Origin: Fistulifera solaris | Lineage: Eukaryota > Bacillariophyta > Bacillariophyceae > Naviculales > Stauroneidaceae | Assembly: GCA_030295235.1 (NCBI GenBank) | Contig: AP026145.1 | Span: 188,501-252,500 of the forward strand | Reading direction: 5' to 3' | DNA length: 64,000 bases | Part shown: positions 2,456-63,116 of the stretch, one piece after another | How the letters are laid out: every line of letters begins with the position of its first letter | How positions within the stretch are numbered: the first letter of the stretch is position 1 | Made by a program: the position numbers and the translations under genes | The notes under the pieces: generated by a model | What the model was told of the DNA's origin: nothing | Databases searched by the model: none | Seen by the model: only the letters and a program-made list of their open reading frames with translations

Positions 2456-3187
2456 TCACCCATTGTACCTGGTATCACCTTTATGCTATAGATCAGATCA
2501 CTTTGCCGTACTCACGACAAGGGATCACTAATTAAAGCGATCACATTACACAGACGAACACCTTGCTACACTTATCAAGAAATATGTATTCGCTGTATTC
2601 ACTGGTAAGGTAGACGACGGTCAAGGTCTATAATATTAGGGTGGAAAATGGCCAATCTTGTAATCTTGCGTTTAGCGACGTCGGGATATTCTCCTCAAGT
2701 GTCACAATCGGCCGATCTAGAATGAATGACCGATCCTTCCGAACTCAATCAACAATCAAACTTTCGTATTTGATAGAGATAGCCAAAGGCATAATATGTT
2801 GAACATAGATGTGTTGGACGCCTTGACGACTGACTTTTACATGCGGTATAGCCGAAACCAAGACGGGAGGACATCCGAAACGACGTTAAAATTCTGCCTT
2901 CCCGTAGGCGTTACGTAGAATCTTGTACGGAGGCTGAATTTTAACGCCCTTTCTCGGATCTTTTGAAGATGCCTTCGAAGTATTTCCTCTAGCGGTACTA
3001 AGTACACTTTTTTTGTATACTAAGGTTTTCGATAGATCACACCGCGTTGACGATGCACGACAAGAGAGGCACTTGGAGGAAAAAAGCCAGCTATTAGTGT
3101 TGCTTATCAAAGATCTTTCATACCAGGTATAACAGAAGGTTGAACGATTTTAAACACGCTGCCTACTCGTTACTTGCTTAGTTGAAC
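2456..3187. other. intergenic region holding one foldback element
   Basis: The only recognisable content is the ~90-bp inverted-repeat element at 2872-2960, annotated separately. The rest is probably the promoter and 5' UTR of the E2 gene. Confidence 0.5.
2872..2960 (+). repeat. foldback MITE-like element, copy 1
   Basis: The two ends are inverted repeats of about 27 bp: ATCCGAAACGACGTTAAAAT at the left, and the right end reads inward as CCGAGAAAGGGCGTTAAAAT. The centre contains CCGTAGGCGTTACGTAG. The reverse complement of the element at 4273-4356 aligns along its whole length at roughly 80% by eye. It is too short to encode anything, so it is best described as a non-autonomous foldback element. 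Confidence 0.6.
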
Positions 3188-3722
3188 ATGTCGAAACGCC
3201 TGTTGAAGGTACGTGCGGATTGTGGAGGACAAGAAATGTCGAACCGCGTTGAGTGTTTCTGATTGCGTTCCTTTGCTCCTTTTTTTCTTATTGCAGGAAC
3301 GCCAAAAGCTTGAACAGACTCCGTTGAGTTACGTCAAGAACATTGATCTAGTAGGAGATGATTTATTCGTTTGGGATGTCACCTTGAGCGGCCCTCCGGA
3401 TTCGCCGTATTTTGGGGGTAGCTTCATTTTGCGCTTGGAGTTCCCCACTCAATACCCCTTCAAGGCGCCGGTCCTCAAATTCCAAACGCCAATTTACCAT
3501 CCTTCTGTTTTGAAACAGACGGGCGAAGTATGCGGTGCTGTTCTTGGCCAGTGGGGTCCTACCTTGACCGCTGAACACTGCTTGCTGACAGTCTACAGCC
3601 TTCTCCAGGACCCCCAGCCAGATCATCCTCTAGAGGAAGATATCGCACAGCAGCTGGCGACTAATCGTAAAGAGTTTGAAAAGATTGCGAAGAAGATGAC
3701 GAAAGAGCACGCTATGAAATAG
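3188..3722 (+). CDS. ubiquitin-conjugating enzyme E2 (UBE2L3/UBC4-like)
   Basis: Carries ubiquitin or a related modifier as a thioester for transfer with an E3. Exon 1 is only seven codons (MSKRLLK, 3188-3208). An 88-nt intron (3209-3296, GTACGT...TTGCAG) joins in frame to ERQKLEQTPL. The protein is about 149 residues, the size of a minimal UBC fold. Visible signatures are the FPTQYPFKAP core, IYHPSVLKQTGEVCG with the expected catalytic Cys, and the DPQPDHPLEEDIA C-terminal helix, which is closest to human UBE2L3. The usual HPN tripeptide before the Cys is HPS here, which may limit direct lysine conjugation. The gene lies between two foldback elements. Confidence 0.88.
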
Positions 3723-4889
3723 GTCTGAAAAGGAAACTAGAAAATTTTGACCGACCAGGTCGCTCACGAGACGTTAAATGCGCACCTTAACTTATTTGGT
3801 TACTAGTTTTTCATTGATTTCACATTGATGCTTCGTGCTCAATCAAATCATAATTGTTGGCGCATTTAAGCTCGCCGATGCTTAGAAACATGTCATATTG
3901 GCTCGACAACGAGATATTCTTTTACCAGTAACTTGGTATCCAACTGCATCGTTATTATACCAAAGTAACTCTCAAAATCGCCGCTTATTAATACCCACGA
4001 AGGACCATCCATTGGCTGTCAGCTGAATCATGTTACACAGCTGAAAAACAAGAGACAGTTCATTACACAAACTCGTTGTCAATATAAATCATTTTTCTTT
4101 TGCAATGTGACGGTAACCAATAGTCGATAGAAGCGACAAGTATCGCTATTGCTCTTTTAGGCTTCAAAACTTCAATAGGTAAATAAGATCATCATCATCA
4201 TTTCTAGTCTCTTTAGTCGTCTAAGAAACATCCACACGAGACCGGAATGATTCACGAAAACGTAACCCAATTGGAAAGGACGTTTTAAAATTCTGCCTCT
4301 CGGTACAAATTTCTACGTAGAGGCTACGGCGAGGAAGAATTTTAACGTCGTTTCCATTGCAGTATACAATCCCCTTATTCATACTGTAGGCTGGTAACTA
4401 AACTACAGCACTTTATAAGTGCGCTGGTGATATAGGGGCAATAGTAGGCATGTCTACTGAATCTTTTATAAAAATATTTCGCAAGCTCGCAAATAAGAGA
4501 TCACGCTCATAGTATCACTCAATCCGGTACTGCATTCCCATAGTAATCATCCATTTAGCGGACTCAACGCACACGAAAGCCTTCGCTCACATTTTTAGTG
4601 AGTCGCTAATCCATTTTCGGCGGAAGGAGAAAACAAAACCAAACTCGGCTGCACCTATTCGGAGTAAAGTATTTGCAACGCATTGAATCGTCCAACATTC
4701 GAAGGCGAGAGATTGCGATCATTGAAAGTGACAGCCTGCAGCTAGACGCGTATTACCCTCGTTGCTGTTCTTCAGCTATTCGTACCCAGAATCTGTCCAT
4801 TGAATCGATTGTCTACCATAACAAAGGTAGACAGTCAACGAAAAGATTTAAAAATCGCCTCTCCGCTCAGTTATATTTTGCAGGCAGCA
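3723..4889. other. intergenic region with foldback element, no other gene seen
   Basis: Over 1.1 kb without a supported ORF. It contains the second foldback element (4273-4356). The stretch TTATATTTTGCAG just before 4886 resembles a 3' splice site, so a 5'-UTR intron of the next gene is possible. Confidence 0.45.
4273..4356 (-). repeat. foldback MITE-like element, copy 2
   Basis: Ends are inverted repeats: GGAAAGGACGTTTTAAAATT at the left and, read inward from the right, GGAAACGACGTTAAAATTCT. The core TCTACGTAGAGGCTACGG is shared with copy 1 (2872-2960, opposite orientation) and resembles the core of the 213-bp satellite monomers at 18 kb and 21-23 kb. Confidence 0.6.
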
Positions 4890-6160
4890 ATGGGTCAATG
4901 CTCAACGCTGCCTGCGGAGACTCGTCATTCTCCGTCTGGTCACGTTGCCCAACCCGCTTTTTTCTCCCTGTCAGCAGTATGCAGCGAGAAGACAAAAAGA
5001 AGCAGCGGCTCAGTGAAGGGGGCAGACGTGGAAGCATGGACTTCAATGGGATTTCACCCCAACCAAGAGTTGCCCATGGCACTGTTAGCCAATTTCGTGT
5101 TCAGTCAAGGGAAGCCGAAAGACAGTCGAACGGTGATGACAACGAAGATAACATGGACATCGATACGCGAGACGAGGCTCCCATAATGATTTCGGCTCTC
5201 CCAGAAGGTGCGGTAAAGACTCGTTGCTATAAGTTAAACCTCAATTCGGAAATTGTACATGAAACAAGCCCTACCAAACAACAAACTTGTCTCGGACCGT
5301 TCAGTGAGCCTCCGCCATTCTTGACGTACAGCTCTTCCGAAGATTCATCCCAGGATGTAGATATGACCGAAGTTGCAATTAAAACGGCTCAAATCTTTCG
5401 AGGGATTACTGTTGGCCGTGACGGGACAATCCTATCACAAAATGCCAGGGCTACGCGCAGCAATAGAGGGGCTAAAACAAAACGAGGTGAAAAATCACGG
5501 CAAGCAGCAAAGATTGATAAAGCGAATGACTTGGTCGAGGAAGCTGTTATGAACGCTCTGGAGACCGATGAGCCTGTGAATATGGTTTCGTTGATAATTG
5601 TAGGAGAATACGACGACATGAAACAGCTCGTTCGCGACGGATCGAAAAAACTCCGCGATGCGGAAGGGCTTCCTGATGAGGCACTTTTGGCCATAAACCG
5701 CCCCAGACCTGGATCGTTAGTTTCTAAGAATCGATCGAAAGTCTCGGCCTCGAGTAATTCCTCGCGGAAACGCAATTCAGTCTCTCCTAACTATGTGAAC
5801 GGTCAAAGGACAGCCGCAATGCAGAGTCTAGATAACGAGCAAATCACGGTATCGCCGCATCCGCTTTCTCCACCGAAGCTGAAGAGCCATCCCCGTGATA
5901 CACGGCCTGCTCGCCGTGAATACCGAGCAAACATGAGAATGCGCCTTGAAGCTTGCAGCGACTTCATGGATCCCCGACACTCGAGCATGCCTGGAAACAA
6001 TGACTGGAGTCAGGCATGGAATATATGGAACTGTGTTGGAAGCGGAGCTGTAAGTCCCTTGCAGCAAACTGCCCCCAACGAGAATTTCATGGTTTTCGAA
6101 GGCAGAGATGCCAGTTATGGAACAGCAAGAGAAGGCGGAGTAACGGGACGCGCTAACTAA
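4890..6160 (+). CDS. hypothetical conserved protein, possibly N-myristoylated
   Basis: Function not recognised. The main frame (to 6160) is hydrophilic, Ser/Arg-rich, with one ordered-looking block (KANDLVEEAVMNALETDEPV, then VSLIIVGEYDDMKQLVRDGS) followed by a basic Ser-rich tail. The frame extends upstream of 4898 without an ATG. An ATG at 4890 in another frame gives MGQCSTLPAE, a good myristoylation/palmitoylation start. A 44-nt GT-AG intron at 4934-4977, with a strong pyrimidine tract before CAGCAG, would join it in phase to MQREDKKKQ. That intron is short and its donor (GTCTGG) is weak. Internal ATGs at 4898 or 4979 are the alternative starts. Confidence 0.5.
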
Positions 6161-49680: not shown

Positions 49681-52600
49681 CTAAATTAGACTTTTGATCG
49701 CTTTACGAATTGAGTGAGTGTTGTCTCCAATTGTCTTGAGCACACGCAACTTAAGAGTCGTCGAGAGCAATTCGGAATACATTTCGTTGTCCAAAATAAG
49801 TGATCGATTTGTGGCAAAGTCGAATCGATCAAAAAATTGCAGCGCAAGGTCGCGAAGAGATTGGACAAGATCCAGATGGATGTTATCATTGCGCTCCTCA
49901 TTGATTATCACCAGTGCTCGACGCAACAAGACAAGTGTCACCAACAAAGCGCGACCATTAGCCCCCGAGTCATTATCAGTAGCTGCTTCGGACCAAGTTG
50001 AGTTCAGTTTTTCTAGGAACAATTGTGCGTCAAATACCTCTTCGGCTGTAAGTGTATTCAGCTCGTTCAGCATGTCCTTTTCGTATGTGGACGCTTTTTC
50101 CTTTTCCACTTGCAGCAGTTTGCCAGATAACCTAGAATATCCATTCCTCACTCTAACCGATTCGTACTTGTGGCCGTAATCGACCTTCAATTCCAGCTCC
50201 GAACCATCGGTGGGTATCAACAATCGTCCACTGCCAGATGCGCTGTGTCCTAAGTAGTAATGAACCGCACCCTCGGGATCTTCTTTGGCGTAGACAGTCG
50301 GGACTTCCGTTCCATTTGTTTCGTTCACATAAACTAAAATGTTGTTCTCCGCCAAATCACTCAGCTCCCCAGTACCGTCATCCGTAATGTCAAAGACCAG
50401 ACCGTCATCTGCATTCGAACCAAACGACCATTTCTCCGACTTCCAATTGTGAATGAAATTCTTAACTATGTGGACATGTTCGGACTGGAGGTCTTTTGCC
50501 CGCAAGGGTGCGTAAACACCTAAATCTATCAGCTCGCCCTCATCGAGAACGAGAGCTTTGTTTCGACTCCGCTGGCAAGAATCGAGCGCGGCAATAGGCG
50601 CAGCTGATGCGAAGAGACCAAGACCTCCGTTCGGAATTCTTGACTCTTTGGCTTTCAGTCGCAAACGGTGCCCTTTCACAATTAGCTCGGTTGACTTGTG
50701 CTGTGCAGGCGAATGAACAGTCGGAAGGGTATATTGACGGTGAAAGGGTTTTCTTTCCAGAGGGCAATATTTGCTGCAATCAGACCATATGAAATTCTTG
50801 CCTTCCGTTTGGGCTAAAAACGATAAATAGCCTGCCCAAGCATCTGCTTCCTCTAGGTTACACAACTGTGACTTTGGGGCCTCGTTTCGAACACCAAAAG
50901 CCAACAACTGGCCAACACTTAGGTCCAAGGCCACGGAGAATCTGACTTCGCCATTGATTAGTGAGCATGACGCGATTCTCCCAAAGGCAAACTTTGCAAA
51001 CCCGTTCCGATTGATCCAGTGATGATGATATCCCTTGTTCAGAAGGAAGTGTCCAACGTCGTTCCGGTCACCGACGGCCGTGCAATCATCTTCTTCGTCT
51101 AGGACAGTAAGGTCCGTTACCATTCCCTCACCTGGTTTGCAGATCTTAAGTTCGTGTCTCGGTACAGCTTTGCGCTTGTCCCCGTCGTCAAATTCAATGT
51201 CGAAAAGACTATTCCTTTGGGCAATGATGTTCCCGTAATACCATCGCTGGAGGAAACGACGTCAGATAAAGAATAGCTGATAGCGACTCACACTACCAAT
51301 ACCAATTACTCACATTATTTTCATGCCATCGCGCATAAACACGAGTTCCATTTGGAACTTGAGACCTCGCAGCTTGTTTTTTGGGTTCTTTTGAAGCGCT
51401 TTTTTACGAACAGTTCGTCAAAGCGCATCTTAAGCTTCTTGTCTTTTCGAACTGCAAGAACGTCTTTTGCCCATGACTCATATTTAACCATCCTGGATTC
51501 CTTGTACGCAAAATTCTGACATATATCAAAGACACAGCGTCGTTTTGCTTTGCAACGGTAGCACGATTTACAAAAGATTGGGGAACAGCATGAGGAGCAC
51601 TCACGGCAAGAGGCAGGGCCTGACTTTGGTGGGGCTTTTGCTTTTTTGTGATCCTGTATTGTATCTTTTTAAATATCTCATCAAATCGCACTTTGAATTC
51701 CTTGTTTGAGCTTTTCTCAAGTGCTTGACGAGCCCACTTCTCGTACATTACCATCCTCGTCTCCTTATAAGCGAAATTCTGACAAATACTGAAGACGCAC
51801 TTAGTCACTTTATGACAACGGACACATATTCTACAGGTGATCGGTGAACAGCAGGACGAACATCGGCGACAATTGTGGACTCTGGACGATGCTTTCGCTA
51901 CTTCAGGAGCACTGACAGTACCAAAAGTTCTGATAGGATTATCCTTGTTGGCGATTAAACCGTCTTCTCCATAAACTCTCTCAAATTGGTCCTCTAGCGT
52001 CTTGACGCCCACCTTGACCGACTCTGCCTGTCGCCGAAAAGAATTAAGAACAGAATCCTTGTATTCGTACGCTAAGCAAGGGAGGAATACACATGATCCG
52101 TCTCTGTTGCCAAGGCAAACTTGGCACTTTTTACACATGAATTTCTCAGTGCATAAGGAACATACACCGCACCGACTTTTGAGCTTTTTGTCAGGCTGAT
52201 CCTCTTGCTCGATTTTGCTCATAATCTTGCTCGCAAAAGCACCTGCTGGTCCGTACAGTTCGTCAAACCGACGTTTAAGACGTTGATCGCCAACCATTAT
52301 CGATTTCGCTTGCTGTTTAGACTTAGCTAACTTTGTCTTTGTGTCGTTGTTCGCTAAACACATTGCAAAAACGCATCGCCCTTCATGATGGCCCTCGCAC
52401 GGAAAACACTTTCCGCATTCAATTGGATCCACGCACGATATACAGTTTCCACAGTAGTCGTCTGTGGGCTGCTCTTTCGCGATGAGGAGTCGGTATCAGC
52501 ATCTCGTGGCCGGTCAACGTTTCTAAGCTTGCTTGCAAAAATACCGTTATTTCCGTTCAACTTCTTGTACTTTTCTTCCAGGCGCTCATCGCCTTTCATT

Positions 52601-53623
52601 GCTGATTTTGCCTCTCCTGCTAGGTTATTAATCGTACTCGGCTTATACTCAAATGATAAACAAGGCCGAAATGCGCATGTTCCACTTCGTTTCTGACGAC
52701 AACGTTGACACTTTCCGCAAACGCTAGTATCTGTGCACGTGGAACAAGTTCCACAAGGCTTCGAAAACTTCCGGCCGGCTCGATCCTTTGCCGCGACGAT
52801 AGACTTGACCGCGGTACCGGTAGTATTTCGATTTCCTGAAGCTTCGAATCAATCAAACCATCCTCTCCGTAGATTTTCTCAAATTGAATATTCAATTTCG
52901 AATCCTTGAGCGTGATAGAATGCGCGTGTCGCTTGTGTCGACGAAGTGTCGACTCCGGCATCAGGCAACACGGCGAAAAGACACAGGAAAGTTCAACAGA
53001 GCATCTCGAACACTTTCCGCACACAAAGGGCGCCCTGCATGTTTCACAAGCACCACACGAATCGGGATTTGAGACGACAGGCTGGCAAAGATGTCATCAC
53101 TTTCTACTTTGACAGCCACGACACTGTTGTTGCTTGAGCGTGTCGCTGGCTTCTTTCGCAAGAGTGCTCGTCGTGCTGCAGACTTTCTGTCGTCTTCTTC
53201 TTCTTCTTCTTCTTCTTCTTCTTCTTCTTCTTCTTCTTCCTCCTCTCTCTGGCGCTTGTGGGTTCTCTCTTTGCTTACAGAATCCTTGTCGATGTGGAAA
53301 TCAGATTTGGCAGTCGAAGTCACAATACTTGCTTCGATTCCGGAAGATGCTATAGAAGAACAGTTTGACATAGTTTCATCGTCCGCAAAGGAACCATCCG
53401 AAGCCAACCCCGAAAGCCCAGAAAGGTCAGCCGGTGATTCATTCATCTGGGGTAAGGTGTCACATGACGATGTTGTCACATCTCGTGAAGCTTGCAAAGA
53501 GTCGGTTTGCATGGTCGCTGGAGGTTCGAAGGGTAAGCTAGCAGCGTCTTGTTCGACAACGGTGGATGTCGCTGAAGTAGCACAAGCGAGGATGCTTTCG
53601 GCGTTCTTGTTCACTTCACTCAT
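49681..53623 (-). CDS. multi-CXXC / Tudor-like / SET-like protein, paralogue A
   Basis: Order from the N-terminus: acidic Ser-rich region with a poly-Glu run; about six CXXC-type zinc fingers (e.g. CGVCSLCTEKFMCKKCQVC then CVFLPC), spacing C-x2-C-x2-C-x5-C-x2-C-x2-C-x8-C-x4-C in most; a Tudor-like domain (GTRVYARWHENN / RWYYGNIIAQ, FDIEFDDGDKRKAVP) split by a 67-nt intron (51247-51313, GTGAGT...CTCCAG); a large C-terminal region with SET-like motifs (IPNGGLGLFAS, GELIDLGVYAPL, ELELKVDYGHKYE). CXXC fingers of MLL and DNMT1 bind unmethylated CpG, so a nuclear chromatin role is inferred. At least four single-base frame changes interrupt the CXXC part (near 53084, 52810, 52475 and 51650); the last 480 residues are intact. 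Confidence 0.75.
53185..53243 (-). repeat. (GAA)n microsatellite encoding poly-Glu
   Basis: CTT/CTC triplet run on the plus strand, encoding about 18 consecutive Glu residues in paralogue A just before DDRKSAARRALLRKK. Paralogues B and C have only short acidic runs at the same place. Confidence 0.9.
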
Positions 53624-54561
53624 TACGGACTACAATCAAGTGCGACAACGTGTAATTAGTCAATAATACGGAGTATTAGATTGAGTCGGCATCGAAGTTG
53701 TATTTACTCTCGCAGCGATCTTTCTTCTGTTTGTGCAAGACGATCTTTTTGTTCGTCGCAACGATAGCGACGATCGAGTGGTATAAGAAGAATGGTGACC
53801 CGGAGATCTTTTTGATGACATATTCATGACTGGAATTCAGTCGTGAAAAAGTATTCTACACATTGGGGCTATAGTACAAAAGACAGCTTAACCCGATTGA
53901 TTTTTTACGTAGACTAAGGAGTTGAGCTGTATTTCCGATTCGGCCAAAAGTGAATATCGTCTGAAATTGGACAACATAAATCCACATGGCTGGTGTTTTC
54001 ACCGAATGTAAACAGAACAAGCATCGAAATATGTATCGCCCCCGTGCGACACTTTCATAGTGTTGTTTTGGGTGGTCATCTCTCCTCATCTGTTGATGAA
54101 TACACAAAAGAACCAATAATCATGTCTTGCCGTATGAATGTGGCGATGACAGCCCTCACCAAATGTGTCTGAGATAGCTGCATGAATAAAACGAAACGAA
54201 AACTTCTGTGTGACTCAATCTTCCCATGACTCCAAACCTTGACCCTCTTGACCACAGATTCTCGACTGCATTCGGTTGTCATGATTTGAGCTAACACTCG
54301 TCGCATTGACTTTTAACAACATAAAAAAGCCTTAATGCGTAATAAGGAATCATCGTAGAGTCTATTGCTACACATCTAACTAACGCGTTGCAAAGTAGCA
54401 ACACATTATTCATTTTTACGGAGAACATTCAAACTGCAATGCGGATTGCGGATGGAAATTGCTTCCACATATTCAAGTACCACTATAGTGCAAGATCAGG
54501 GAACAGTCTCGACGTAATAATCAAATCACAATACAACGACCCCCGCATTCTCGTGAGCATT
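53624..54561. other. intergenic region between paralogues A and B
   Basis: About 940 bp with one hairpin-box element (53823-53883) and a possible decayed one on the minus strand near 54260-54285. No supported gene. Confidence 0.5.
53823..53883 (+). repeat. hairpin-box element, copy g
   Basis: TTCATGACTG-GAATT-CAGTCGTG forms a perfect eight-base-pair stem; the spacer ends TACACATTGGG and the box is GCTATAGTACAAAAG. Confidence 0.65.
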
Positions 54562-57282
54562 TCACTTCGTTAGGTTCTCAATTGCGAGGCGGATTGAATA
54601 CGTGTTGTCCCAGCTCGACTTAATCACGGAAAACCCAAGTGCCGATGAAAATAAGTCAGCATACCCTTCATTCAATATGAGAGATCGATTTGCAGCATAG
54701 TCGAACAGGTCAAAAAATGCAAGTGACAGGCGATGAAGAGACTGGACAAGCCATACATGTTCACCAGCACAGTCCTCGCGGTTGTTGATCGCCTTGACAC
54801 GGCAAAGTAGTAAAAGCGCCACCAACATAGCGCGACCAACAGGTCCCCCTGTCATTGGTTGTCTTTGAGTCTGTCCAACTTGAGTTTAACTTCTCTAAAA
54901 AGCTGTAAATGTCGGAAATTTCTCCAGTCGTGAGCTTGCTCAGATCGTCGAGCATGTCCTTCTCATCAGAATATGCTTCCATCCTCGCTTCTTTGAGCTT
55001 CTGACCGGACAACCTTGAATAGCCGTTTCGTACTCGCACCATCTCATATTTTGGTCCATAGTCTACCTTTAATTCCATCTCGGTTCCATCGGTCGGAATC
55101 AACAAGGGCCCCTGGCCACAATCGTTGTGACCCAAGTAATAATGCATCGCTCCCTCTGGATCATTTTTGGCAAAAACAGTAGGGATATCTTTCCCGTTTG
55201 TTTCGTTCGTAAAAACAAGAATGTTCTTCTCAGCCAATTTACTCAAGTTTCCAGTGTCGTCGTCGGTAATGTCAAAAACCAAGCGAGGATCCCCAAACGC
55301 CTCGAAAGACCATTTCTCTGATTTCTTGTTATTTATGAATCCCTTTACAATGACGACATGGTCTGGCTTTAAGTCTTCTGTCCGCAAAGGGCCGTACACC
55401 CCTAAATCGACAAGCTCCCCTTCTTCGAGGACGAAAGCAGCACCCTTCTCTCTATGCTTCAGTGAGGCAATGGGTTCCGCTTTCACAAACAGACCAAGAC
55501 CTCCCTTTGGAATTTTTGATTCCTTAACCTTCAGTTTCAAACGGTAGCCCTTCACAACTAGTTCAATCGTCCTTTGCTGTGAACACGAATGAATCACGGT
55601 TGGAACAATATAGTGACGATGAATAGGAATTTCTCGTGGAAGACGATCACTCGGGATTGAATAGTTCCGTCCTTCAGTTTGGGCGACAAATGATAGGTAT
55701 CCTGCCCATGCATCTGCCTCCTCTACGCAAAGTAAGGGTGGATTCGGAGCTTCGTTGCGGACACCAAAAGCCAGCCATGTTCCGACACTCAAATCTAACT
55801 CGATAGAAAAATGGAGCATACCCTCCATATTAACGCAGGAAACAAACGTTCCAAATGCAGCCTTTCGTGTGCCTTCACGATTGATCCATTCGTGATAAAA
55901 GCCTTGTTTCATTAGGAAGTGACCTTGGTGCTCATTCGGTGTGCAAGTAGTCATGCGACGACATGCTCGACATTTTCCACACTTCAAAGAGCTAGTGAAG
56001 GATGTACAAGTTTCGCAACGGCGTTTGAGAGTTGGGATATCCTCTACTCCAGACACAGGCGCCTCCTTTATAAACTGGCTTGCGAAAACACTGCTTCCCC
56101 CATAAAGCTCCACAAACTTGTCTTCCAGTTGCTTATTGCCGACTTTGATGCCGATGGCTTCTTTACGGAATCTATTCAATGTGCGTGTCGAGTAATGTTT
56201 CGCGAGACAAAGTGTAAAAATGCACTTTCCTTTTTTACGACCAAGACAAGTGATACATTCACGACATGAAATCGGATCTGCACACGAAGAGCACTTTCCA
56301 CAACGACCGCCGGCCTTTTTTGAAGGTCCACAAGTAGCAAGAGCGCTTTGGTCGACAACTTTCAGTCTGGCGGCCAAAGCTCCGTTTTTCCCCCGTAAAG
56401 TGCCTCGAATTTGTCCTCCAAACTCTTGTTTCGCGACTTGGCAGTCCTTGCTTCGCTTCGATACTTCTTCAACGTCGCTGGTTTGTAAGCTGTCTTGAGA
56501 CAAGGTCGAAAGGCGCATCGTCCTTCCCGAAATTTCCGACAGCTCTTGCATTCTTTGCACTTTTCTTGGTTCATGCACGTGGAACACCTGCCACACAGTC
56601 CCCCAAGTTTGTTGCCTCGCGGACGTGCGGTGTTGATTGTGGCGGTAGATTGGTCACCAATAGAGACATTGTTTTTCTGTAATGCGCGCGCTTCTTTGAC
56701 GTTTTCATTTTGACTTTCAAACTGTGGTTTCTCTTTCACTTCATCAAGGCGCTTGTTTGGTTTTGCATCCACACAATTAATTTTGCTCATTTTATTTGTA
56801 GGCGACCCACGATTGTCAAACGGGAAGCTGGACTTTGTTTTTTCGAATCGTGGCCGTTTCGCAGCGGGCTTTCTGTCGTCTTCGTCGCTCTCCCACCGAC
56901 GCTTGTAAGAAAAATAGTCACCTTCGGACTCGGTGCTTGCATCGTTGTCACTACTACTGCAATCTCGTGACGCTTGGGTCCAAAGGTCCGTTTCAATTTC
57001 AGTTGAAGCATTGAGAGGAGAATTCGATAAAGAACACATTTCGTCGACGGAGAAATCGTTCAAACTGAACTCTGTTCGATCCGAATGATGAGCGAAAGCG
57101 GTATCCTGCTCAGTATCGAACAATCGCTTCGCAACTACCCGAGAAGTTTGCCAGCATTCCGCTTCCACACTCGTCGGTGACGTAAACGATGAGGGTCCTG
57201 ATTTCTTGACAATTCGAAAAATACCAGGAATATGAGGAGACGGCGGATTGTTTCGGTGCTTTTTCAACAAACTCATTCTCAT
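54562..57282 (-). CDS. multi-CXXC / SET-like protein, paralogue B (no Tudor)
   Basis: Starts MRMSLLKKHRNNPPSPH. The disordered N-terminus has a nuclear-type basic patch (RKPAAKRPRFEKTKS). There are two full CXXC modules (CGRCSTCMNQEKCKECKSC, CGKCSSCADPISCRECITC) and a third that is cut short: CETCTSFTSSLKCGKCRACR passes into PNEHQGHFLMKQGFYHEW. So the Tudor domain and the end of the third finger are absent and the protein enters the SET-like region directly. SET-like motifs are present (IPKGGLGLFVK, GELVDLGVYGPL, MELKVDYGPKYE). Single-base frame changes lie near 56385 and 54850. It is shorter than A and C, consistent with an internal deletion. Confidence 0.72.
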
Positions 57283-57980
57283 AAGTAGACAGTCTTTGTT
57301 CGTTCACTAATTGCACGAAAATGTTTTTTCACAAGGATTTATCGATGAAACGATGCAGAGGTGCGAAACGACAAGGAAAATGGAAGGTGTTGGCGTTGGA
57401 GGCATGTTGGAGGCACCAAAAGATACGCCATCTCGCGGTTTCACGTTTGTGCGTGGTTTTTGCTTGCTATAAGATCCACTCTTACCGGTACTGAAATATC
57501 TCCAACCGAGTAGAAGAACTCTCACTGTAAAACAAAATGTTGGATTATGGTATGCGAGACTCGCCTCAATTTTAGTCCCGTCACTTCTTGGCGAACGGAA
57601 AGTTTTGCAGCGAGCGCGACCTTTTCTGCTTCTACCATCTGACCTATGGCACCAATGGATACGTTAGTTGACTTGATGATTGAAATGCAATACGAATTAT
57701 ACGAGAAGCTACCCTCTACGGTGCCTTAGGGTGTCTCGATCTCATTTCAAAAGAGACTTCTCATTAAATCATCCGACCCTCTAGAGTGTTCCAGTCACGG
57801 TTGATTTATGAATGAATCAACCCTACAAAAGTAGCCAGATCCTCAATAAACTGGAAAATTCAGTCAAATGTCGAAAAAGCATCCGCATTTCAGGAAAATT
57901 AGGAATAAATATAGTGTCAACGTAAAAAAAAAAAAAAAAGTCAGCGAGCGCGACCGCTCAATAAAGAAATATCCCCGCCT

Positions 57981-58005
57981 ACCAGGTACCGGTACCGGTA
58001 CCGTA
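57981..58005. repeat. short GGTACC tandem repeat
   Basis: Three to four GGTACC units in a row. Similar doublets lie near 9537 and 42598. Confidence 0.7.
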
Positions 58006-58384
58006 TGTACCTGATACTGTACGCGACCTCTCCAATAAACAAAACCCGGCTTACGTGACCTTTATTTTTCTAGTTTGACCATCAAGCGCAGCCATTAGAC
58101 TAGTATTTCATGTTCAGTCGGTGTGTCGATTGATGATTTGGTATACAAACTGTTGCATCTTTACGAAAAGTCACAAGAGCTGCATCTCTGGGCCGTGACT
58201 TTCATGTTCACAGGCGGCATTTTTCTGTTGCGAAGGAACGATGAGTCATGTAGTTTCTTGGCATTAAAACCCTTTCGCGATGGCGCATTCAGAAAAAGGT
58301 CCAACGAAGCGGCAAAATGCTCCCTGTATCAGCGGTATCATCAGTCGAAACGCCACTGATGTTCAAGTACCTTTGTAGAGACAA

Positions 58385-58657
58385 TTACAGCTTTCGAGAG
58401 CGGGTGAATCCGTTCCTTGGGGTCTTCCTTCGTCTTCGAGATCCGAAACTTTGATTTATTAGCTGACCGAAAGGATACCTGACGACGGCGTTGACAGCAA
58501 TTAACGTGGATCCGATTGATTGTAATGCTTTCATCAACGTTGAGTTGTTTCGATGAGTCATGATGTCGAAACTGGTGGCGCCATTCGGACATGCTCGGTC
58601 GAATGACGCACCAAAAAGTGATGACACAAAGGCACCTATCGAGAGCAGCTTTCTCAT
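58385..58657 (-). CDS. possible small secreted protein
   Basis: Ninety residues starting MRKLLSIGAFVSSLFGASF, which resembles a signal peptide, then a basic tail (RRRRKTPRNGFTRSRKL). No family recognised, and it overlaps another open frame. It may be chance. Confidence 0.22.
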   Translation of the reverse strand: MRKLLSIGAFVSSLFGASFDRACPNGATSFDIMTHRNNSTLMKALQSIGSTLIAVNAVVRYPFGQLINQSFGSRRRRKTPRNGFTRSRKL

Positions 58658-58887
58658 GCATAATGTTTGAAGAATACTATGATACTGTTTGGGCTTCGAC
58701 GATGCCCAACTGGCACGCAATGCACGGGACTTTGAACGCTAGAGTGCGTAATTACCTGTTGTAAGCACCGTTCGGCCCCGTCTCGAACAAGCACGTTTTG
58801 TGCTAAGCAACAAAGAGAACGAGTGCTTCAGATGCAATATATGATATAAAGTGAGCTAATAGTTACGCAACAGAAGAACAAAGCTAA

Positions 58888-61800
58888 TTAAAGGAGATAC
58901 TCAATCGCTCTGCGAATTGAATACGAGTTGTCACCAGCCGACAGAGTCACAGGCACCTCAAGTGCCGCCGAGAGCAATTCAGCATACCATGTGTTTCCCA
59001 CTAGAAGAGCTCGATTGGTAGCATAGTCGAATCGGTCGAAAAACTCAAGCGACAAAGCATGAAGCGATTTCACAAGCCACGTATGAGCACCGGCTCCTTT
59101 CTCACGGCTGTTGATTGTCATGACACGACGAAGTAGAATAAGTGTCACCAACAGCGCGCGACCCACAGCTTTAACGTCATCAATCATTCCTCCCTCTTTC
59201 CATTTCGAGTTAAGCTTAACTAGAAAATTTTGAGCCTCAAGAACTTCTTCAGCCGTGAGTTTGTTCATATCATCCAGCATGTCCTTTTCATAGGTCGCAA
59301 CTTTTTTCTCTTCAATCTTGAGCTGCCGACCGGATAGCCTTGAATAGCCTTTCCGAACTCGCACCGACTCGTACTTCTCGCCGTAATCCACCTTCAATTC
59401 TACCTCCGTCCCATCGTTCGGTATCACCAGACGTCCTTGGCCAAGATAGCTGTGGCCTAAATAATAGTGCATGGCGCCCTCTGGGTCTTCTTTGGCAAAT
59501 ACACTCGGAGTTTCGCTGCCGTCTGTCTCGTTTGTAAAAACCAGGATGTTACTTTCCGCCAGCTTACTCAGATTTCCGGTGTCGTCGTCGGTGATGTCAA
59601 ACACCAAGTCGTCTTTTCCGTTTGAGCCAAATGACCAAGCTTCCGCTTTCCAATTGTGAACAAATTCCTTCACAATGAGAACGTGGTTAGGCTTCAAGTC
59701 TTCGGTTCGCAAGGGTCCGTATACTCCCAAGTCGAGGAGTTCTCCCTCTTCGAAAACAAGAGAAGCTTCACGGCAAAGCGAATTGATAGCAGCGAGGGGT
59801 CTAGCTGTTACGAAAAGACCTAGACCTCCATTTGGTACTTTGGATGTTTTGGCCTTAAGTTGCAGATGGTGCCCCTTACGACCAAATCAATCACTCGCTG
59901 TTGTGGACAAGCATGAATCGTCGCAGGTAGAATGTAGTGGCGGTAAAATGGCTTTTCCTTGAGAAAACACGCACTTGGCCCTATATATTGCTTGGCCTCA
60001 TTTCGCGCTGTATAGGCAAGGTAGCCTGCCCATGCATCTGATTCTTCAACATTGCACATACGTGGATTGGGTGCTTCGTTTCGAACCCCAAAAGCAAACC
60101 ACTGTCCAATACTAAGGTCTAAGATCACGTTGAACGTAATCGGACCTTCCTCCGCACAAGTACAAGACTCTATTTTCCCATAAACAGCTTTCGTCCGACC
60201 GTCTCGACTTATCCATTCGCGATAGTATCCTTTGTTTACGAGAAAATGCGCGATCTTGTCCTTGTTACATTTGGCCGCGTCAGCGCCCTCGTTGCTTCAG
60301 AGAATGCCGAGTTGTTACCACGGCCGTGTCACTTAGCACTTTATCAGCAATTTGATTTTCTGATACAGAAAGATCGTTCACATTTGACTCTTCTAGTCCT
60401 TCTAAAGGCACAAATTCATCGTCTGGGACGGCGTTGCGCTTGTCTCCGTCATCAAAAATAATATCGACGAAGTCGCCTCGTTTAGCGACAACCGTCCCAT
60501 TGTACCATTGCTAAAAACGCAAACGTGAGAAACATAATAGGACCTTATGAAGAAGCAAAAGTTTAATACTCACGTCATTCTTAGGCCATCTTGCAAATAC
60601 CCGGGTTCCAATCGTTATTTCTTCTTCCGCTTTAATCTTTGTTGAATTTGCGCCATAAAGTTCTTCGAAGCGTGACTTAAGACTTTTGTTCGAATAAAGT
60701 GCTTGTCGAGCATATCCCTTGTAATTCGACATCGTCCTCTTCTTGTAGGCATAGGTCTTGCAAAGATTAAAGACGCATCGCTTCCCTGCCTTACAGTGGA
60801 CACAGCTTTTGCAGAAGAACGGTGAGCAGCAGGCAGAACAGCCACAACTGTTCTTCGAGTGGGAATGAGGCTTCTCGGATTGTTTTGAACGCATCACCTC
60901 ACTCTCGTCCAGAACGGTAATGAGACCTTGCTTTCCGTACATTCGTTCGAATTGTTCCTCCAAATGAGGTTTCCCCGATTTTGCTTTCACTGTTCGTGCA
61001 TTTTGGATATAGGTATTGATTGTGGACTCTTTGTACTTGTAGTTTAAGCAGGGGTAGAACACACACCCTCCACCCCGAACGCCACGGCATGCCGGACACT
61101 TCTGGCACACCTCCTTGACTTTACACGAAGCGCAATATCCACATCGACATCTGACTTTCTTGTCGTGCTGGATTGGCGGCTCTGCCTTATCCTTTACTGT
61201 GCCGGAGAATACGCCTCCCGGTCCGTAGAGTTGCTCGAACTGTCTTTCAAGCACTTTATTTCCTTTCATAATTGACTTTGCTTGTTGCTTGGCATTGGCG
61301 AGCGTTGTTGCCTTGTACTTGTAGGCCAAACAAAGAGCAAAAACGCATCGTCCCTTCCGAGAATCTCGGCAATTGCTACACTTATCACATTCTATCGGAT
61401 TTGTGCACGATGCACAAATTTTACAGTGACCGCCAAAACCCCGCCCTGTTCTCGGAGTTTCTCCAGATAAGGATGATTCACTAATTAGCTTCACCTGAGC
61501 TGCAAGAAGTCCATCACTTCCAAATATTTCCTCAAACTTTTGCTCCAAACGTGGATTACCTGTTTTTACAGTTTTCGCCTGATTGACGAAAATGCTGAGA
61601 CCCGACAAAGTGTAGTTGAAGTCAAGACAAGGAAGAAAAGCACATCGTCCTTGCCGTTTACCGTGGCAGCTGTCACACTTTCCACAAATGTCTCGATCCA
61701 CGCACGTAGCACAAACACCGCAAACTCGTCCTCGTCTCTCACCGCACCGACTGTGGGTGGTGTCGGTGGCCGCTGCGTTGTCCGCAGGGGCTACCCGACT

Positions 61801-62646
61801 ATCTGGTGTCTTGCGTGTAATTACGCCGTTCTCTCCGTAAACCTTTTCAAACTCTGATTCAAGTCGATCATCTTCAGCAGCCATAGAAAGTGCTTGTTCC
61901 TTGTAAAGGCGTAGAGTGGAATCGGTGATGCCGTAGTTGCAACAGGGAGAAAAGACGCAACGTAGTTCATATGCACACCGAGAGCACTTGCCGCAGACAA
62001 ACGGATCCGCGCACGTTTCGCAGAAGCCGCAACAGGAACCATTTGCGGCGAAAGGACTTTGCGAGGAATGTTCTCCGGGTTGGTCGGCTTCCGGAAATGA
62101 ATGCCGACCACCGTTGCTATCAACATCTTCCAGATCGTCGCACGACGGAGCAGCTGTGTCTTCCTCGATACGAGCACGTCGTGCGGCAGGTTTTTCGTCG
62201 TCTTCATAGCTCTCGCGCGGTCGCTTAGCGGTGCGGTAGTCTTCCGGCGATGCTGTCTCTGAAACATCGTCGTCGCTGTACATGTCATTGCCGTTTGCTT
62301 GGGCCATAGTAATCATGTTCTCGGCCCCAGATGATGTAGAAGAGTCGGATCGAACATATGGCTCGTCGTCTGGAGCTTTCTCGTTCTCGGGAGAAAATCG
62401 ATTCGCACCAAAATCTGCTAGACCCGCTGGAGAAGACGGAGTTTCGTGCGGCGTTTGATTCTGCTCCACAAAAGTCTCGGGTGTTTCCTTTGCAGCATCT
62501 CTCGATGCATGCAGCGACTCACCATGTACGCAGATCGGAGACTTCAAGGGCAAAGCCGCCGAACCGACTTCTTTGGGCCCGCAGAGAGCGGCATTCTCTG
62601 CATTTCGAGCGAGCAACCCGTCGGGTGCAATCTTCGAGGAACTCAT
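58888..62646 (-). CDS. multi-CXXC / Tudor-like / SET-like protein, paralogue C
   Basis: The best-preserved copy. Acidic N-terminus (~190 residues) with nuclear-type basic patches, then five CXXC modules in one uninterrupted frame: CGFCETCADPFVCGKCSRC, CGVCATCVDRDICGKCDSC, CKICASCTNPIECDKCSNC, CGYCASCKVKEVCQKCPAC and CGCSACCSPFFCKSCVHC. Each is followed by a ~45-residue helical linker ending in LExxFExxYGxxG. A 63-nt intron (60511-60573, GTGAGT...TTTTAG) splits the Tudor-like domain: GTRVFARWPKND / QWYNGTVVAKRG, DIIFDDGDKRNAVP. The SET-like region follows (VPNGGLGLFVTA, LLDLGVYGPL, VELKVDYGEKYE). The frame changes near 60290 and in a C-run near 59873. The final 280 residues are intact. Confidence 0.8.
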
Positions 62647-63116
62647 GAATCAATGTAATTTGCGGCGGCGTCTTGCTTCAATCACCAATTAAGCGATATA
62701 TCGATTTATTAAGCGATTCTTCTAATGAGAATGACGAATAATAGAGGCGACAATAGTATATTTTTGACCTCATTCACTGCTCACTGCTTTTGTCTTTTGT
62801 CTTTGGTCCCAAACTTCAGCTGTCGTCGCGTGTGTCCGCGCAAAACGCAATGCGATGATCGATGATGATGATGCGTGAGAAGTCAACAGTCCCGCCAGTT
62901 TCAGTCACGCCCCAAACGTTCCAAAATATATATTGGGATATCATCGGGGAGGAGCCGCCAGGCTTTTCGACATCACACATAGGCATAGTGGTGTGCACTG
63001 CAATGATTTGAATAGTATTGACCATTGCAGCTTTTTCACTAGGAGAGCGACCGAAGGTTGGTAGCAACTGTGAAACATAATGTTTTTAGGTAGCAATCTG
63101 CTTCGAGAAATCATTA

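Follow-up and report, generated by a model that had tools for sequence, protein, structure and literature searches.

Tandem genes for CXXC finger arrays with Tudor and SET-like domains in the diatom Fistulifera solaris

Introduction

The histone methyltransferases MLL1 and MLL2 (KMT2A and KMT2B) have a single CpG-binding CXXC finger and a canonical catalytic SET domain. SETDB1 has Tudor domains, an MBD and a split canonical SET domain, and is not known to have CXXC fingers; MBD1 has one MBD and is not known to have a Tudor or a SET-like domain. CXXC fingers read CpG by means of a tripeptide with KQ, RQ or HQ ahead of the seventh cysteine (Cys 7), which in TET1 is SHQ (PMC3685328). MBD1 is described as having three CXXC fingers (PMC3685328), two of which, CXXC1 and CXXC2, are reported to be without the motif and not to bind CpG; CXXC1 binds Ring1b (PMC4642587). 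In the parts of the literature on CXXC domains that were considered, MBD1 is the sole named example of a multi-finger CXXC protein. In this paper, we describe three related genes, A, B and C, from the diatom Fistulifera solaris, which encode arrays of CXXC fingers followed by a C-terminal SET-like domain and, in A and C, by a Tudor domain between the two. They occur in a stretch of 64,000 nucleotides (hereafter ‘the window’; AP026145.1, positions 188,501 to 252,500), which is part of contig C21 of a genome of 51.7 Mb in 61 contigs. The architecture is unusual: among the matches listed, the open-access literature on diatoms, algae, stramenopiles and tandem CXXC arrays contains no description of CXXC, Tudor and SET-like domains in one chain.

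An earlier note on this DNA, made from its letters alone, compared the proteins with MLL (one CXXC finger plus SET) and with DNMT1. Other proteins can be compared too: MBD1, with its several fingers per chain, belongs beside them (PMC3685328, PMC4642587). The likeness to MLL1 and MLL2 is the position of CXXC N-terminal to SET, or SET-like here; the differences are the finger arrays, and NE in place of NH in the C-terminal domain. MBD1 differs in that its type-2 fingers are described as having an extended loop (PMC4642587), whereas the loops of the window fingers are 5-7 residues long. The fingers share a short loop without KFGG with the type-3 CXXC domains of CXXC4, CXXC5 and the TET proteins, which give the best profile matches in the PDB. 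Type 3 has HQ (PMC3685328), however, which is missing from that place in the fingers of the window; relatives on contigs C15 and C16 have SHQ, one residue further from Cys 7. SETDB1, finally, supplies the nearest Tudor sequence in the PDB, and here such a domain shares a chain with a SET-like one; locus L034, a distant relative, has an MBD on the downstream side of its SET-like part. A role in chromatin is very likely for the family because of these modules and their kin. Our preferred interpretation, which we hold tentatively, is that A, B and C are lineage-specific chromatin adaptors of diatoms whose SET-like fold is non-canonical and may be inactive.

Three related genes on one strand

The three genes lie within positions 49681-62649 of the window, all on the minus strand; the earlier note, too, had them on one strand. 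Gene A (62646-58888) comprises exon 1 (62646-60574; 691 codons), with four strict fingers and one degenerate finger, an intron (60573-60511) and exon 2 (60510-58888). Gene C (53623-49681) encodes six fingers, a Tudor domain and a SET-like domain; its intron (51313-51247) is followed by an unbroken exon 2 (51246-49681), where everything after the intron lies in one open frame, 526 codons long between its stops. In gene B (57276-54562) two fingers are followed by a finger fragment that is fused directly to the region ahead of the SET-like domain, the Tudor domain being gone. The finger totals are five in A, six in C, and two plus the fragment in B. The earlier observation is partly confirmed, then, and holds only with corrections: the module order said to be shared by all three genes, and the arrays of five or six fingers, are found in A and C and not in B. 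Introns apart, the frame classes of the pieces show two breaks in A (near 60288 and 59877 in exon 2, placed by comparison with a copy on contig C22), two in B (near 56390 and near 54848, each at a run of G) and five in C (before and between the fingers, and before the Tudor domain). One relative, P0013, is a single frame of 1053 amino acids that reads through the intron place and contains five strict fingers, the Tudor domain and the SET-like domain together. The module order is not, therefore, an artefact of joining open reading frames by eye.

The CXXC fingers

We define a strict finger by eight cysteines with the spacing C-x2-C-x2-C-x4/6-C-x2-C-x2-C ... C-x4-C. The window contains 12, all on the minus strand, and 50 mononucleotide shuffles of the window contain none. 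Four belong to A (61942-62031, 61627-61722, 61330-61425 and 61048-61143, the last with the degenerate fifth finger downstream), two to B (56500-56595 and 56207-56302) and six to C (52968-53057, 52660-52755, 52358-52453, 52076-52171, 51782-51871 and 51519-51608). Inspection by eye adds a degenerate finger in A and another in B, which fall outside this count. The zf-CXXC cysteine spacing recognized in the earlier note, final C-x4-C pair included, is real, and the membership in this family that it proposed is supported. Searched against the PDB, the array profile matches CXXC5 (expect value, E, 1.9e-4) and CXXC4 (E 4.4e-3), and CXXC domains account for 13 of the 19 chains listed to E 10; the other six are thymidine kinase and the Plu4892/Plu4895 methyltransferases. 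Against the Pfam family PF02008 (cut-off 26.5 bits), the relatives P0012 (29.4 bits) and P0014 (30.4 bits) pass; P0013 (24.9 bits) and the window pieces alone (at most 21.5 bits) stay below.

Multivalent binding to CpG, which the earlier note expected of such arrays, finds no support in the finger loops. At the published place (Cys7 -1/-2), KQ, RQ or HQ occurs in none of the 12 strict window fingers, the two degenerate ones being excluded. The C15/C16 finger has SHQ with its glutamine at -3, one residue further from Cys 7 than this test allows; at that offset one of the 12 has such a pair, and anywhere in the loop, two do. The one is finger 2 of A (loop HGKRQGR), whose RQ is RE in the C22 counterpart. 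Because the motif is mostly missing, and because MBD1 CXXC1 and CXXC2, which are without it, fail to bind CpG, the arrays seem more likely to bind proteins, or DNA without choosing CpG, than to bind CpG; finger 2 of A is a possible exception.

The Tudor domain and its intron

The Tudor domains of A (60415-60630) and C (51140-51361), both on the minus strand, are split by the introns given above. These are GT-AG introns of 63 bases in A and 67 bases in C, and they interrupt the domain at the same place, as the earlier note had observed of its Tudor-like fold. Without splicing, the best match to Tudor_5 has an E of 0.21 among the window frames and of 0.022 in P0013. Once spliced, all four sequences match both Tudor_5 (3.6e-6 to 7.7e-5; A 7.7e-5, C 1.2e-5) and BAHCC1-like_Tudor (2.6e-6 to 1.4e-5; A 1.4e-5, C 2.6e-6). 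These matches support the Tudor assignment but do not reach the curated Pfam cut-offs. A sequence search of the PDB is weak, with one kind of domain on top: SETDB1 (E 0.05), KDM4 and then 53BP1.

The C-terminal SET-like domain

The SET-like domain occupies 59340-59868 in A, where its motifs read GGLGLF ... VYGPL ... DITDD-NET ... DYGEKYE, 55020-55560 in B (approximate ends) and 50140-50679 in C, all on the minus strand. GGLGLF and DYGxKY, the two motifs that the earlier note found clear, are present in A, B and C alike. In an alignment of 18 rows, which leaves out further close relatives, the motifs of SET domains occur in order: the GxG motif in 17 rows (P0024 begins past it), a YxG-like motif in all 18, and a C-terminal DY-type motif in all 18, being DY in 17 and NY in one. 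The NHSC that had not been obvious is absent: every row has NE(T/V) at the NHS place, and none has NH. Thirty SET domains of the same genome all have NH, NA or SHS, and none has NE(T/V), the motif being sought anywhere in the cut-out. Pfam SET (PF00856) matches none of nine family members, and a Pfam search of the genome gives at least 71 SET matches, none of them at these loci. A sequence search of the PDB with the C-terminal domain, as a single sequence and as a profile, gives no match.

Profiles were compared by hhalign with the 30 best of at least 71 SETs from the same genome, with 14 canonical SETs and with 12 GRGAF-type SETs. Against the 30, the corrected alignment gives 90.6% (E 1.3e-6, 124 columns, score 46.9). 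The maximum in 40 shuffles is 20.3, these shuffles having used gap-trimmed SET alignments and the real comparison untrimmed ones. The figure of 90.6% was also obtained with an earlier alignment that included a faulty L034 row (a wrong-frame upstream part) and a partial L033 intron. Other runs and builds range from 0.1 to 75%, among them 59-74% against the 12 GRGAF-type SETs with the distant relatives L033 and L034, and 36% without them. In the corrected alignment GGLGLF is paired with GxGxF, and ELKVDYG with ELxxDY; the NET stretch comes beside the NHS stretch. The SET-like assignment of the earlier note is, in our estimation, moderately supported: it is borne out by motif order and by the result that two builds share, and is weakened by the failure of Pfam to find SET in any of the nine and by the dependence on build.

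The domain is under constraint. The ratio of non-synonymous to synonymous substitution (dN/dS; Nei-Gojobori) between A and its C22 copy is 0.135 in the SET-like domain, 0.37 in the region before it and 0.40 in exon 1. For comparison, ubiquilin has 0.18, and the SET-like domain of C15/C16 has 0.28.

Relatives and family history

A tree places the orthologues of A, of B and of C in three groups, with support of 100/99, 96/99 and 97/100, respectively; its deeper forks are weak or open. The triplication is therefore older than these lineages, and the members of the groups suggest that the same clusters exist elsewhere. The relative P0006 (904 amino acids) is 97% identical to B over 265 columns, reads through both places where B is broken, and is without a Tudor domain too, the same loss as in B. 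Relatives of A exon 2 also read through. P0015, from another contig, has a B-type N-terminus, two strict fingers and, by eye, further degenerate ones. More generally, SET-like relatives are encoded on C15 and C16 (38-39%) and by P0010 and P0019-P0024. Among named proteins, the length-limited searches found no homologue besides P0017, which is weak evidence: candidates ranged from 0.55 to 1.75 times the length of the query, scoring covered roughly the 8000 best of them, and a spliced full-length protein of about 1230 amino acids lies outside the ranges of two of these searches. In IMG/VR, two peptide patterns taken from A3 matched 35 times, and not one of these matches was confirmed.

On C15 and C16, the single finger with SHQ is encoded by an exon upstream of the SET-like exon. 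P0017 is the public protein FisN_25Lh038, 100% identical to a frame from C16, and its model crosses the junction between these two exons. The model (L028 2887-5098) omits the CXXC finger, since it starts at a methionine that follows the finger in the same open frame; we infer that the gene really starts upstream of this methionine, finger included.

The distant relatives L033 and L034 have GRGAF and GMGAF, as do ordinary SETs of this genome, and a piece of L034 matches the window loci at 8.9e-7. An MBD (L034 4714-4848; E 1.6e-9) lies in the frame that comes after the SET-like part of L034. L033 has one open frame containing both a SET-like part and a stretch that matches, by eye, the start of this following frame of L034, so that a single gene is likely but not proven. 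By eye, P0010, P0022 and P0023 have N-termini resembling an MBD; Pfam found no MBD in them, and we make no such claim.

Homoeologous copies and consensus errors

F. solaris is described as an allopolyploid with 42 homoeologous chromosome pairs (PMC5935921). Contigs C21 and C22 behave as such a pair: they have the same genes flanking the locus, one ubiquilin-like and one thioredoxin-like. Pfam supports the ubiquilin of the window, and the thioredoxin-like gene on both contigs; the ubiquilins are 88% identical as proteins. C22 carries an unbroken copy of A, with both exons open (702 and 540 amino acids from stop to stop). Over 3755 columns of alignment, five gaps separate it from the A of the window: one is intronic, two keep the frame, and two are frame-breaking gaps of a single base each. 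The matches listed include just one more on C22, a weak one (24% identity, 3 stops).

Frame breaks occur in at least one other gene of this assembly too. A TCP-1 chaperonin gene near loci L029 and L030 (L029 5086-6671, and L030) is broken in both homoeologues: on contig C3 it is in two pieces in different frames (Pfam positions 1-255 and 256-464), and on C4 it reads through the C3 break and is broken further on, by eye. The assembly thus carries consensus indels, and the window copies can be called neither pseudogenes nor intact. In gene C (window 51340-53093), none of the five breaks falls within a strict finger, and the first four displace the frame the same way; indel bias and chance are the sole suggestions we have for this pattern.

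Function, and alternative explanations

As chromatin adaptors, the proteins would follow a common plan: a charged N-terminus, an amplified zf-CXXC array, one Tudor domain of histone-reader type (lost in B) and a C-terminal domain that probably descends from SET, its NH having turned into NE(T/V). A tail after this domain is helical in a weak model. For the Tudor domain, the most likely ligand is predicted to be a histone tail with a methylated lysine or arginine. The finger array may offer proteins, or DNA irrespective of CpG, a multivalent scaffold, by analogy with CXXC1 and CXXC2 of MBD1, which do this for proteins. The SET-like domain is predicted to be a module for binding, or of altered activity, rather than a standard histone methyltransferase, and the proteins are presumably nuclear.

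Several results weigh against this interpretation. All of the spliced Tudor matches are below the curated cut-offs of Pfam. Removal of gappy columns from the alignment with the faulty L034 row lowers hhalign to 14%, which is still above all 100 shuffles, and omission of L033 and L034 from the earlier alignment lowers it to 13.8%. The 14 canonical SETs alone give nothing significant (score 14.8, shuffles up to 19.6), and in a second build, again with the faulty row, four of 100 shuffles score as high; nor do nine rows against the SETs of the genome reach significance (0.2 to 22.5%). Structure prediction of the C-terminal region, a check that the earlier note had proposed, was run on C exon 2 with AlphaFold and gave a predicted local distance difference test score (pLDDT) of 42, too poor for a fold search. 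The model of the A finger array is poor as well (pLDDT 54), and Foldseek finds no match to it in the PDB with E below 6. Constraint is weaker on the finger exons, A exon 1 (0.40) and that of C15/C16 (0.78). And with two, two and five breaks, none of the three genes is a clean frame here.

Three other explanations have to be weighed. The C-terminal domain might be unrelated to SET, sharing the short G-x-G and DYG motifs by chance; the lack of a Pfam or PDB sequence match speaks for this, as does the variation of hhalign significance with build. We consider it unlikely: against it stand the order and spacing of the motifs, a score against the mixed SET set that none of 40 and none of 100 shuffles reached, and, in L033 and L034, GRGAF or GMGAF like the ordinary SETs of the genome. 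Improbable, to our minds, is the idea that the proteins are active histone methyltransferases, MLL-like with more fingers, which multivalent binding targets to unmethylated CpG. It accords with the zf-CXXC profile matches, with the SET motif order, its final Asp-Tyr being present in all but one of the 18 rows, with a Tudor domain closest to those of histone-methyltransferase type, and with the RQ in the second finger of A, placed where the C15/C16 finger has its SHQ. But 11 of the 12 strict window fingers have no KQ, RQ or HQ at either place, in loops of 5 or 7 residues, NE replaces NH in all 18 rows, and there is no Pfam SET match.

The third explanation, which is compatible with the adaptor interpretation of the family, is that the window cluster consists of decaying pseudogenes and that the working gene is on C22 only. 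The number of frame breaks favors it, as does C22, which keeps one unbroken A and otherwise only the weak match with three stops. Against this, both frame-breaking gaps between A and C22 are single bases in 3755 columns, consensus indels of the kind found in TCP-1 exist in the assembly, C exon 2 is open for 526 amino acids from stop to stop, and relatives of A exon 2 and of B read through. On balance, decay of the whole cluster seems doubtful, though well worth bearing in mind.

Returning to the adaptors, one may speculate further, and with some skepticism, that altered-SET chromatin proteins make up a superfamily of their own in diatoms, recognizable by NE(T/V) for NH, and that this superfamily has been joined repeatedly to readers of DNA methylation: the SHQ finger on C15/C16, the MBD of L034, and the amplified arrays of the window, which would have been mostly stripped of their CpG contacts and now be multivalent scaffolds linked by the Tudor domain to methylated histones. 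If true, this superfamily would connect DNA methylation with histone methylation by a bridge that arose independently of those of animals and plants. Since the family includes both a TET-type SHQ finger and arrays mostly without it, it offers a direct test of CXXC folds that no longer read CpG; whether SET-like folds of the NE type have kept the ability to methylate can be tested in it as well.

Other CXXC proteins of the genome

CXXC fingers occur in other settings in this genome. Five strict fingers are found in a further CXXC protein, encoded at loci L029 and L030 (on C3 and C4, near 10 kb); one piece of it, which includes three of the five, scores 36.3 bits and passes the PF02008 cut-off. 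Locus L031 (C3:2453501-2460000) has, at 2921-5733, CXXC-like fingers, one of them strict, upstream of a HECT ubiquitin-ligase domain (E 7.3e-10 for the frame 5128-5730); the frames are broken, and a single gene is likely but not proven. A long protein encoded on both members of a contig pair, at loci L001 and L002 (on C41 and C40), has a single zf-CXXC above the Pfam cut-off.

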